In this document: piece after piece, positions 6,360 to 18,464 of the stretch | Layout: every line of letters begins with the position of its first letter | Numbering within the stretch: the first letter of the stretch is position 1 | IMG/VR virus record: IMGVR_UViG_3300042398_001310 | Span: 1 to 20,712 of that record | Strand: one strand, 5' to 3' | Origin: a virus | Length of the DNA: 20,712 nt | Translations under genes and position numbers: made by a program | Notes under the pieces: generated by a model | What the model was told of the DNA's origin: nothing | Database searches by the model: none | The model's input: the letters and a program-made list of their open reading frames with translations, nothing else

Positions 6360-6434
6360 TGGCACAGCCCCTCGGAATCGAACCGAGCCAGATGGTTTTG
6401 GAGACCTTCTCGCCGCCTTGGAACATTGGACTGC
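6360..6434 (-). tRNA. tRNA-Trp-like gene (anticodon CCA), odd D arm
   Basis: A 75-nt cloverleaf can be drawn. The acceptor is GCAGTCC with GGGCTGT (seven pairs, two of them G-U), followed by G and an encoded CCA. The T arm is CTCGG, loop TTCGATT, CCGAG (five perfect pairs). The anticodon loop CTCCAAA is that of tRNA-Trp, on a stem AAGGT/ACCAT with one A-A mismatch. The variable loop has 4 nt. The D arm is weak: at best three pairs (TTC/GAG) around a 9-nt loop that keeps the GG pair, and the usual T8 and A14 are missing. It lies in the gap between the portal gene and the preceding small gene. It may be a divergent working tRNA or a decaying one. Confidence 0.6.
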
Positions 6435-14493: not shown

Positions 14494-14544
14494 CTTGTGC
14501 GTGTTTGTTTGGTTTCTCCTCAGCGTTATTGCCTTGGAAATTAG
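14494..14544 (-). promoter_or_regulatory. ParB-like gene leader; second copy of the capsid-type leader
   Basis: On the minus strand it begins at the upstream stop (CTAATTTCC), continues AAGGCAATAACGCT, then AGGAG and ACCAAACAAAC, and ends A/C-rich before the ATG. It aligns with 3614-3660 with few changes. GAGGAG is present, but about 28 nt before the ATG, too far for a normal Shine-Dalgarno. Confidence 0.5.
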
Positions 14545-15074
14545 TGTTTCCTACTAAGTTGCACCGCCGAATAGGTAGCGCGGCTACCTTCCGACTTCCT
14601 GAACTTCGTGATCGAGAGCCCGAGCACATCGGCCCAGCCCACGACGTAGTGGGAGATCAGGGCGCGGGTGCATCCCAGATCCCGAGCGATTTCAGCCTGA
14701 CTACGCTTCCCGTTGAGCTGGTCCAACCCGGCGGCGAAGGCCAGCGCATGAACCTGAGCCGCCAGATTCTTGGCACCCAGCAGCAGACCGATCACACGGC
14801 CCAGCATCTCCCAAGCCTGACCGGCCAGATTCTTCCGCTCACGCTCACGGACCGTCAGACCCCACTGACCGGCGCAGGCGATCACCTCCCGCATCACCAG
14901 CCAGTCGATCTGCATCTTCGAGGGAGGGATCTGCTTCTGGACGAACCAGAAGAACTCCTCAGCCAACTCATCACCCTCCCCGTCAATCTCGGCAGCGTAG
15001 TCGGGCGTGTAGGCCGACTCAGCCGTGTCATTGCTATAGGCGCGGAACGCCTCGTGGGGTGATGCAGAGATCAT
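14541..15074 (-). CDS. HTH protein (sigma/response-regulator-like)
   Basis: A 177-residue protein beginning MISASPHEAFRAYSNDTAES. The N-terminal 110 residues include ERKNLAGQAWEMLGRVIGLL and look helical. Residues 122-150 (GKRSQAEIARDLGCTRALIS) are a clear helix-turn-helix, followed by a Ser/Arg-rich tail. It may control transcription of phage genes or bind the origin. The start overlaps the previous stop as ATGA (15074-15071). Confidence 0.75.
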   Translation of the reverse strand: MISASPHEAFRAYSNDTAESAYTPDYAAEIDGEGDELAEEFFWFVQKQIPPSKMQIDWLVMREVIACAGQWGLTVRERERKNLAGQAWEMLGRVIGLLLGAKNLAAQVHALAFAAGLDQLNGKRSQAEIARDLGCTRALISHYVVGWADVLGLSITKFRKSEGSRATYSAVQLSRKH

Positions 15075-15894: not shown

Positions 15895-16142
15895 AGGTCA
15901 CCTCCTTCGGCTTGCAAGAGAAGTGTGATTCCTGCACACTGCCCCCTGAAATCGACGGACTGAACACTACGAATTGTGGAACTCGTGTGGAACTGACCTC
16001 GATTTACTCTGTAAAAAACTGCCCTGTGGTGTAACGGTAACTTGGGTTTCATGGGTTTTTGCGTTGGTTTTACTCTGTTAGGGTTGGACTGAATTGGAAA
16101 AAAGCCTTCCTTCATGTGGAACTATGTGGAACTGGTTAAAGC
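15895..16142. other. attP candidate and divergent promoter region
   Basis: This gap separates the integrase (plus strand) from the early operon (minus strand). TGTGGAACT occurs four times, at 15975-15983, 15986-15994, 16115-16123 and 16125-16133: two pairs, each with about one helical turn between copies. Between the pairs, near 16023-16050, TGTGGTGTAACGGTAAC looks like the acceptor-end and D-arm part of a bacterial tRNA. Two repeat pairs around a core beside the integrase gene is the layout of a phage attachment site. I could not assign promoters with confidence. Confidence 0.5.
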
Positions 16143-17243
16143 ATGGCCTACCTCGTGAAGCATGCCCGGTCTCCGTTCTGGTTTGTGCGATTCCGTGATT
16201 TGGAGAGGCAGCGCTGGAGGGAAGAGAACCTGAAGCTGCGCGTCGATTGCCCGAAGGATTCGGCCAAGGCCGTCAAGGAGGCGGCGAAGAGGTCGGGCAA
16301 CGAGGCCATCGTGAGACCGAACAGGGGCGGGGATTTCGTCGAGTGGGTTCCCACCTACCTGACCGACCATTACAAGAACCCGCGCACGCTCCTTCGCTCC
16401 CGATACTTCTGGAGCACCGTCCACGTCTTCCTGCACGAGCAGGGGATCAGGACACCGAGCGAGGTCACCTACAAGCATGCCCAATCCTACCTCGACTGGA
16501 GGAAGGGGGCCGGTGGGGAGCACGCCAGCCACAACACTGCCCGCGCCGAGTTGAAGTTCCTGAGCTTCCTCATGAGCGAGGCGATCAGGCGAGGACTGGC
16601 TGAGACGAACGGCCTTGCCCTGGCACGAGTCCCGATGACCCCTCCCAAGGAGAAGCGCGAGATCACCACCGCCGAGATCACCGCCGTCCGGAAGGCCCTG
16701 CGCGGCCAGCCGGGATGGATGGCCACCGCCTTCGAGCTTCAGCTTCACTTGGGCTGCCGCTTCTCCGAGACCCGCATCCCCATGGATCGGATCGACCTGA
16801 AGAGAAAGACCATCCAGATCCGAGATGCCAAGAGGCAGGAGGGAGATCCGAGGAAGTGGTTCAGCACCCCGATCAACGACCAGTTGGCGGTATTCCTGAA
16901 GGGCATCACCCCCCACGACGGATACACCCTGCCCGAGATCGAGCGCACGATGAACCGCGACTTCAACCGGGTTCTGGGCCGTGCTGCCGGGGGATTGACG
17001 AGTCATTGTTTGCGGGTCTCCTTTATTTCACGGCTCCATCGAGCCGGGCTCTCCGAGAGCGAAGCGATGCGGTTGGTGAATCACTCGACACGGATGGTCC
17101 ACCGTCTTTACTCGAAGCTGAACGTCGAGGACGCACGCCGCGCGATGAAGCGGGTGCCGCTGCCCCCGCCTCCGCCGCCAAAAAGGCGCGCACCCAGCGC
17201 AGGGTCGTCTTCTTCCCGAAAAAAGGGCAGCCTCGGCGCTTGA
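16143..17243 (+). CDS. int: Tyrosine recombinase (integrase)
   Basis: A 366-residue protein beginning MAYLVKHARSPFWFVRFRDL. Residues 1-165 hold an arm/core-binding region; the catalytic domain follows. Catalytic residues by pattern: R206 (HLGCRFSETR), a lysine near K230 (RDAKRQEGD), H288 and R291 (TSHCLRVSF), H314 (LVNHSTRMVH) and the nucleophile Y323 (HRLYSKL). After about residue 340 comes a Pro-rich, Ser/Arg-rich tail whose DNA is shared with an antisense gene. It would integrate the phage at a host attB site and, with a directionality factor, excise it. The ATG follows directly after the fourth TGTGGAACT repeat. Confidence 0.93.
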   Translation: MAYLVKHARSPFWFVRFRDLERQRWREENLKLRVDCPKDSAKAVKEAAKRSGNEAIVRPNRGGDFVEWVPTYLTDHYKNPRTLLRSRYFWSTVHVFLHEQGIRTPSEVTYKHAQSYLDWRKGAGGEHASHNTARAELKFLSFLMSEAIRRGLAETNGLALARVPMTPPKEKREITTAEITAVRKALRGQPGWMATAFELQLHLGCRFSETRIPMDRIDLKRKTIQIRDAKRQEGDPRKWFSTPINDQLAVFLKGITPHDGYTLPEIERTMNRDFNRVLGRAAGGLTSHCLRVSFISRLHRAGLSESEAMRLVNHSTRMVHRLYSKLNVEDARRAMKRVPLPPPPPPKRRAPSAGSSSSRKKGSLGA

Positions 17244-17340
17244 GGGAGGAGAGTTCCGTCGGGTTCATCCCGACCAGGGCGGCGAGGGCCTTGGGGAACT
17301 CCAGACGCTCCGGGTCGATCATGGGGGTGGTGGATGGCAT
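17023..17340 (-). CDS. Excisionase-like small DNA-binding protein, antisense to integrase end
   Basis: A 105-residue frame. The start is at 17340 or, in frame, at 17322 (MIDPERLEFPKALAALVGMN). Residues 7-57 look like a MerR/Xis-type winged helix-turn-helix: ALAALVGMNPTELSSLKRRG, then CPFFGKKTTLRWVRAFLAAE. After residue 60 it turns into low-complexity Ala/Arg/Ser, exactly where it overlaps the integrase tail (17023-17243). Its position 22 bases after an RHH regulator, in the lytic direction, suits an excisionase or recombination directionality factor. A shadow of the integrase is the alternative, but the protein-like part lies mostly outside the overlap. Confidence 0.6.
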   Translation of the reverse strand: MPSTTPMIDPERLEFPKALAALVGMNPTELSSLKRRGCPFFGKKTTLRWVRAFLAAEAGAAAPASSRGVRPRRSASSKDGGPSVSSDSPTASLRSRRARLDGAVK

Positions 17341-17362
17341 GGCTGGGGGGGGTGAAAAAGGC

Positions 17363-17530
17363 TCAGGAAACTTTTTTCGGCGAGCCGTAGGTCTTGCGGA
17401 TCGCGAGGCGAACCAAATCTGCTACCTTGAGATCGTGCGCGGCGGCCAGCTTGCGGAGGTGCATGAATACTGGCTGTGCGACCCGCACGTTCACTTGCTT
17501 GGTGAGTGTCATTCCGTTCATCTGGAGCAT
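17363..17530 (-). CDS. Ribbon-helix-helix regulator, leftward
   Basis: A frame of up to 55 residues; starts possible at 17530, 17521 or 17512. The core MTLTKQVNVRVAQPVFMHLR is a beta strand leading into a helix, followed by KLAAAHDLKVADLVRLAIRK, the order of an Arc/CopG-type RHH domain. Upstream, TTGCAA and TATACC are 16 nt apart and could be -35 and -10 boxes. They would start the mRNA at or very near the first codons, so it may be leaderless. GTATAC overlaps the -10 box and may be the operator. It likely acts as a repressor opposite the rightward RHH gene. Confidence 0.72.
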   Translation of the reverse strand: MLQMNGMTLTKQVNVRVAQPVFMHLRKLAAAHDLKVADLVRLAIRKTYGSPKKVS

Positions 17531-17621
17531 TGGTATACAAAAGGTAGTAATGCTTGCAACCTAATTATTCCGCTTACCGAAAAAAAGTTTTGCGTGGGTC
17601 GTATTGGTATACATTGAGCCC
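17531..17621. promoter_or_regulatory. Divergent operator region of the RHH switch
   Basis: Two copies of ATTGGTATACA, at 17529-17539 and 17603-17613, each contain the palindrome GTATAC. One is next to each divergent RHH start codon, and the copies are 74 bp apart. For the leftward gene, TTGCAA-16-TATACC forms a plausible promoter. For the rightward gene, TATACA (17608-17613) is a plausible -10 box but has no good -35. The middle is AT-rich. This is the best candidate for the lysis-lysogeny control region. Confidence 0.6.
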
Positions 17622-17837
17622 ATGAAGATGAATAAAGCAGTCCAGATTAGGATGCCCATCGAGATGTGGGATCATCTCTCCACGCTCGCCGCCAAGCGGG
17701 CACCAGGCACAAAGGTCACCCACCTCATCCGAGAGGCGATCCAGAGGACGTTCTATTCGGAGGGCGAGGCCGGGCAGTCACACCCTTCCGAAGGGAAAAG
17801 TGGGGGGGTGGGGGGGGTTAAATCCCTCTCTTCGTAG
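17622..17837 (+). CDS. Ribbon-helix-helix regulator, rightward
   Basis: A 71-residue protein from the ATG at 17622; an upstream frame start at 17604 falls inside the GTATAC element and is rejected. The sequence MKMNKAVQIRMPIEMWDHLS followed by TLAAKRAPGTKVTHLIREAI is an RHH domain (strand, helix, turn, helix). The remaining 25 residues are Gly/Ser-rich and encoded by G-rich DNA with two long G runs. It probably binds the shared operator region. By analogy with Arc/Mnt-type proteins it could be the lysogeny or antirepressor side of the switch; which side cannot be told from sequence. The 115 bases after its stop hold no gene I can support. Confidence 0.78.
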   Translation: MKMNKAVQIRMPIEMWDHLSTLAAKRAPGTKVTHLIREAIQRTFYSEGEAGQSHPSEGKSGGVGGVKSLSS

Positions 17838-17952
17838 GAGTTATAGAAACATAAAGACCTTTCCCGCCGCTCCGAAACTAGAGCAAGCCACAAGGGATGA
17901 CAAGCGGTGATGTGACTTGACCGTCACCACTCCGAACACTATAAACCAACCC

Positions 17953-18216
17953 ATGAACACACTCTTTCTGGCGGATGCCGAAGGGGCCTTGGCGGCATTT
18001 GGGATCTTTGGACTCGTCGGGGGATTCATCCTGGCCGCGCTCTATGCGCTCTTCCCCCTGATCGTCATGTGGCAGCTTGGAGGGGTGAAGCAGCGGATCG
18101 ACCGGCAGCGGATCGAGGAGTTGAAGGCGCTCAAGGGTGCCACCGAGGAGATCCGGACTCAGAATGCCCTGACCCGCCAGTTGCTCAGGGCCTACGGCCA
18201 CGAGCCGGAGGTCTAG
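17953..18216 (+). CDS. Small membrane protein with coiled coil
   Basis: An 87-residue protein beginning MNTLFLADAEGALAAFGIFG; the start at 17953 is preferred to one at 17917. Residues 10-41 form one long or two short hydrophobic helices (LVGGFILAALYALFPLIVMW). The rest is a charged coiled coil (RIDRQRIEELKALKGATEEI). It is expressed in the same direction as the rightward RHH gene, so it may be made in the lysogen. A superinfection-exclusion role is only a guess. Its TAG stop lies in the palindrome CTAG and shares it with the converging gene's TAG. Confidence 0.68.
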   Translation: MNTLFLADAEGALAAFGIFGLVGGFILAALYALFPLIVMWQLGGVKQRIDRQRIEELKALKGATEEIRTQNALTRQLLRAYGHEPEV

Positions 18217-18464
18217 AACTCGATCCTTCGCCACCGATCCCGCCAGAGAAGGTCGCTCAGGCGGTTTGAGAGGGCAATGATTCGCACCTCTGGCTCCGAG
18301 GGAAGGAGCAGGTGAAGGGCCTCGTGGCAGACGGTATCGAGCCTTTCCCTGCTGTTGTTTTTCGTCGGGTCGATCTCGATCAGGTCAGGGGCGACGGCCT
18401 GACCGAGGGCCTTCTCCTTGCCGAGTTTGCGGTCGCGGATCTTCAGCGTCCGAGGAAGCTTCAT
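18213..18464 (-). CDS. Mini HExxH metallopeptidase-like protein
   Basis: An 83-residue protein beginning MKLPRTLKIRDRKLGKEKAL. It contains DTVCHEALHLLLP (HEALH, residues 47-51), the zinc-binding helix of HExxH peptidases, flanked by a strand (DLIEIDPTKNN) and a C-terminal helix (IIALSNRLSDLLWRDRW). Its layout resembles short phage proteins related to ImmA/IrrE- or SprT-type domains, with a possible third ligand further on (E57). It might cleave a repressor or simply be a structural relic. The start overlaps the previous stop by ATGA (18464-18461). Confidence 0.65.
   Translation of the reverse strand: MKLPRTLKIRDRKLGKEKALGQAVAPDLIEIDPTKNNSRERLDTVCHEALHLLLPSEPEVRIIALSNRLSDLLWRDRWRRIEF

Follow-up and report, generated by a model that had tools for sequence, protein, structure and literature searches.

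Phage immunity is known largely through helix-turn-helix repressors, and the locus described here raises the question of whether a pair of ribbon-helix-helix (RHH) proteins can serve as a lysis-lysogeny switch in their place. It lies in a 20.7-kb window, the whole stretch of DNA that was analyzed (IMG/VR virus record IMGVR_UViG_3300042398_001310, classed linear), where two divergent small ORFs, RHH-L and RHH-R, sit between integrase and excisionase-like genes on one side and a gene for a small membrane protein on the other. We favor, at a probability of roughly three in four, the reading that this is the immunity region of a temperate phage, in which two paralogous RHH repressors replace CI and Cro. 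The pair is best read as the only recognizable switch, in a design resembling Arc and Mnt.

RHH-L is encoded on the minus strand (17363–17521; 52 aa counted from the conserved ATG) and RHH-R on the plus strand (17622–17837; 71 aa, with its start codon, ATG, at 17622), leaving a 100-bp gap between them. The RHH-L ORF reaches 17530, and its fourth codon, the ATG at 17521, is the start common to the relatives and the most likely site of initiation. Comparison of relatives shows that both ORFs are coding, since the differences are concentrated at third codon positions, with counts at the three positions of 7/2/20 for RHH-L (window against relative L005) and 5/1/22 for RHH-R (L007 against L037), and because of this bias both proteins can be placed under protein-level selection. 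Single-protein Pfam scans of the window proteins gave weak matches, below the Pfam cut-off. When alignments of the relatives were compared with PDB profiles, RHH-L matched CopG (E=0.03) and Arc, RHH-R matched a CopG-family regulator (E=0.001), and the RHH_1 family was matched in several alignment members, at 3e-5 and 4e-6. A first-pass annotation, made from the sequence alone, had recognized two RHH proteins facing apart, and both the existence of the ORFs and these family matches bear it out. Structure prediction for each protein, which that annotation had suggested as a check, gave AlphaFold monomer models with an extended N-terminus followed by two helices in both cases, the strand not being called by DSSP. 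Fold searches of the two models against the PDB returned no match at E<=0.001; the top matches were weak, P22 Arc for RHH-R (E=0.49) and VapB for RHH-L (E=1.3). Membership of both proteins in the RHH (CopG/Arc) superfamily is supported by these comparisons. A search of 50,697 annotated phages gave no match to RHH-L, to the type-B RHH-L or to the integrase.

The pair is conserved among viruses that share the tyrosine integrase (plus strand, 16143–17243). Eleven viral contigs carry this integrase type at 52-98% identity, and ten of the eleven (L002-L011) have a divergent RHH pair at the equivalent place. Further scans found eleven more clear pairs (L037, L070, L072-L075, L077, L079, L081, L085 and L086), which brings the count to at least 21 viral contigs besides the window; additional pairs in L030 and L032 are RHH-like as judged by eye. 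The sole match in a genome contig, a Spartobacteria MAG, has an RHH pair near an integrase of 44% identity, and six xis-like relatives (L012, L031, L033-L036) have no recognizable RHH pair beside xis. Left and right proteins are paralogous in each of four unrelated pair types, with scores of at least 44 within a type and at most 40 across types (the P22 Arc and Mnt rows being excluded), i.e., the two proteins of one type resemble each other more than they resemble their positional counterparts in the other types.

Downstream of RHH-L on the minus strand lies an excisionase-like winged-HTH ORF (17023–17340), convergent with the integrase and overlapping its 3' end; the overlap spans 17023-17243, and the same kind of overlap is seen in the different int/xis module of L070. 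Relative to the type-B contigs L006 and L007, DNA homology with the window ends at 17342, two bases past the start codon of this ORF, and relative to L006 it returns near 17946, just before the membrane protein gene. The exchanged cassette of RHH-L, gap and RHH-R thus spans 17343–17945; against L006/L007 the integrase is 91% identical and RHH-L 15%. The reverse was found for L007 and L037, with integrases 50% identical, RHH proteins 86% and 86%, and gaps 80%. In L003 and L070 the cassette is 98.4% identical over 498 bp, from the exact RHH-L stop codon through RHH-R, while the integrase and xis-like genes differ (integrase 29%, window against L070), and L006 and L085 behave in the same way. Cassettes shared between different integrases, and the converse, therefore indicate that immunity cassettes are exchanged independently of integration modules. 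The two RHH genes are not always co-inherited, which counts against the reading of a fixed pair: between L006 and L007, RHH-L is 89% identical, RHH-R 30% and the gap 57%, and the similarity of the gap tracks RHH-R more than RHH-L. As a separate observation, an RHH-R C-terminal tail, YPLEEITALRAAEEPKKSRTQ, is kept while the DNA-binding head is replaced (L002:7672-7737, L003:7603-7668, L006:7667-7732), and the window RHH-R does not have it. The DNA encoding this tail has no clear third-position bias; the tail was rejected as a selected peptide and is therefore possibly a conserved stretch of DNA.

The gap contains an exact 11-nt repeat, ATTGGTATACA, with one copy beside each RHH start and both copies in the same orientation on the plus strand. 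The left putative operator (17529–17539) overlaps a proposed leftward –10 box, TATACC, and the right putative operator (17603–17613) overlaps the proposed rightward –10 box. When the 98-bp stretch was shuffled 5000 times with its dinucleotides preserved, 7 of the shuffled sequences had a repeat of at least 11 nt, and GTATAC has only two sites in the 20.7 kb, both in the ATTGGTATACA copies, in agreement with the GTATAC repeats noted beside both starts in the first-pass annotation. In the 31.6-kb relative L005, TTGGTATACA occurs only twice, both times within the gap. In L072 and L073 both copies read ATTGATATACA, i.e., they carry the same substitution in parallel, as would be expected of operators. 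In a test of left-right similarity, the window, L005 and L072/L073 reached significance, L009 and L077 were marginal, and most of the remaining relatives fell short; pooling ten type-A representatives gave p ~5e-6, and pooling type B gave no significance (p=0.33). A twin operator general to all relatives was rejected, since significance is confined to some lineages; the twin arrangement appears statistically clear only in the lineages of the window, L002 and L005 and of L072/L073. A perfect 15-bp palindrome-like site, GGGCACATTGTGCCC, is found a single time in the L010 record, where it overlaps the start region of RHH-R. These patterns suggest that RHH-L and RHH-R may bind the gap repeats.

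The –10 boxes first proposed, TATACC and TATACA, do overlap the repeats, and on the right the comparison of type-A relatives favors a different box, TACATT (plus strand, 17610–17615), over TATACA. No promoter matching the E. coli sigma70 consensus was found by scanning, and for this reason the –10 boxes stay a proposal. The motif (T/C)ACATT lies 6-8 nt upstream of the RHH-R ATG in every type-A relative (spacing read by eye), a spacing at which the transcription start would fall at or next to the RHH-R start codon. On the left, most type-A relatives have, also by eye, a TTG-type –35 and a weak –10 located 7-10 nt upstream of the RHH-L start codon; type B lacks this spacing pattern. Any Shine-Dalgarno (SD)-like motif was found in 7 of 34 hand-picked phage genes, and functional SD sites occur in 10% of genes in Spartobacteria (PMC10783764). 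Because SD sites are scarce in both, a missing site is uninformative on leaderlessness. Leaderless mRNAs are plausible from the motif spacing, more so for RHH-R than for RHH-L. An Rfam scan returned nothing at the gathering threshold.

Integration signals lie nearby. A proposed attP core (plus strand, 16020–16041), located upstream of the integrase between GTGGAACT arm-type repeats at 15976-15994 and 16116-16133, matches exactly, over 22 bp, the 5' half of tRNA-Gln(TTG) from genomes of the order to which the Spartobacteria MAG belongs. In L006 and L007 each side of attP carries GTGAAACT (or GTGAAACA) as its repeat, so that the paired repeats vary together. A tRNA-Gln attP beside an integrase supports a temperate life, as judged from these sequences. 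Seven stretches of host DNA were searched for a prophage at tRNA-Gln, and none had one. The nearest annotated terminase is that of the Akkermansia phage Moulinsart, and the hosts are probably Verrucomicrobiota.

From gene content, conservation, coding selection, operator co-variation, module exchange and paralogy, all of which are observed, we infer the roles of the two partners, the positions of the promoters and the order of events as follows. Divergent promoters would overlap the putative operators beside each RHH start codon. RHH-R would be the lysogenic repressor (CI/Mnt-like), made together with the small membrane protein (plus strand, 17953–18216), and would sit on the operators and shut off the leftward promoter, thereby maintaining lysogeny. 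RHH-L would serve the lytic arm (Cro/Arc-like): leftward transcription would yield RHH-L and the excisionase-like protein and then, after crossing the integrase gene in antisense, head for the replication and structural genes, almost all of them encoded on the leftward strand. Like Cro or P22 Arc, RHH-L would damp both arms, the rightward one and the one that produces it, and a swap of the cassette would change the immunity type. A switch between lytic and lysogenic arms had been part of the first-pass annotation; conservation, cassette exchange, co-variation of the twin repeats and the lack of a CI/Cro-type repressor in near-complete relatives speak for it, while the part given to each arm is still a proposal. 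A more far-reaching version can be offered only tentatively: a primary immunity switch of RHH paralogs with no CI/Cro counterpart, built at least four times from unrelated RHH families and exchanged as a cassette, with leaderless mRNAs, so that the few bases bound by the repressor would also be those at which translation begins, and with mixed RHH-L/RHH-R dimers that may set the decision.

Does another repressor hold lysogeny? Neither an S24 domain nor an HTH_3 match above the cut-off was found in 12 contigs of relatives, and among the 44 ORFs of the 32-kb relative G005, RHH_1 was the only regulator-type Pfam match (E<=0.05). The earlier statement that no CI/Cro-like HTH pair is visible in the window thus extends to these relatives, where a classical repressor, named at the time as a finding that would count against the switch, did not come to light above the cut-off. 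We consider it unlikely, if the best of the alternatives, that the pair is a secondary immunity module like P22 immI, running a side function (excision, or a membrane exclusion protein), with lysogeny itself held by an unrecognized primary repressor. The Mnt/Arc pair of P22 is itself secondary to C2/Cro (PMC8022706, PMC7549136), some genes of the relatives are without assigned function, and a weak HTH protein is encoded at 14541-15074. Against this, besides the result for the 12 contigs, the pair is placed where int and xis meet, at the head of the leftward strand on which almost all the remaining genes lie. An antirepressor-like gene was not recognized next to it, and cassettes exchanged along with their matching operators are a typical feature of primary immunity.

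A still less probable reading is that the pair is a local regulator of integration and excision, balancing xis against int with no control of lytic genes. RHH-L does lie directly before a xis-like gene, antisense-overlapping the integrase, in two different int/xis modules, and an excisionase-like gene adjoins RHH-L in relatives with different integrase modules, as the first-pass annotation had it for the window. The window ORF itself matches phrog_66 weakly (E=0.15), so that it is called an excisionase from its position; in L081 the gene next to RHH-L is recognizable as HTH_17/phrog_66. However, one pair accompanies two integrases, one integrase accompanies different pairs, and the near-complete relatives have no other recognizable lysogeny regulator. 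A CopG-type antitoxin or copy-control module, suggested by weak matches to CopG_antitoxin and VapB-type RHH proteins, is very improbable, because the RHH neighbors gave no significant match to a toxin in Pfam or PHROGs, toxin-less divergent pairs recur across unrelated pair types, and the pairs are always in integrase-bearing or phage contigs.

The preferred reading, an RHH/RHH immunity switch, can be set against known systems. The mnt and arc genes of P22 diverge from a region of shared operators. In lambdoid phages, CI/Cro regions have divergent promoters, a paralogous DNA-binding pair, operators overlapping the promoters and cassettes exchanged between related phages, and the lambda cI repressor mRNA is known to be leaderless. 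The present locus resembles the lambdoid regions in its divergent paralogous regulator pair and in the swapping of the whole cassette, its promoters and operators being predicted, and differs from them in using RHH rather than helix-turn-helix proteins and in having no self-cleaving S24 domain, so that induction must work differently from CI. In P22, Arc is the lytic-phase RHH repressor and represses its own synthesis, Mnt acts in lysogeny by blocking the synthesis of Arc and antirepressor, and the two small repressors have some mutual homology (PMC7549136); immI is a secondary immunity region within the late operon, which controls the antirepressor beside the C2/Cro primary switch (PMC8022706). 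Two divergent, mutually homologous small RHH proteins are likewise present here, as read from sequence, but they lie at int/xis, and no antirepressor, CI-type repressor or second switch was recognized. Because it fails a defining feature of each, the pair is filed neither as immI nor as CI/Cro. F55 of SSV1, a 55-aa RHH protein, is the main lysogeny repressor of its virus and binds an 11-nt site at several promoters including its own (PMC9608457); it differs in being the single repressor of an archaeal virus, with no divergent RHH partner described in that paper. An arrangement that in P22 is only a side system thus appears to be the sole recognizable switch in an uncultured phage family, probably of Verrucomicrobiota. 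Such pairs offer a route to recognizing lysogeny genes where CI/Cro searches fail, and the natural sets of paralogs with matching putative operators are material for studying the co-evolution of repressor-operator specificity.

The small membrane protein of the rightward arm, whose place is taken in some relatives by different small ORFs, is a candidate exclusion or conversion gene. Adjoining it at 18213-18464 is a small protein with a HEALH motif (metalloprotease-like), of which two divergent forms occur among the relatives. The weak helix-turn-helix match at 14541-15074 lies on the lytic strand and is present in several relatives too, and ARAGORN places a tRNA-Trp (CCA) gene at 6360-6434, beside the portal gene.
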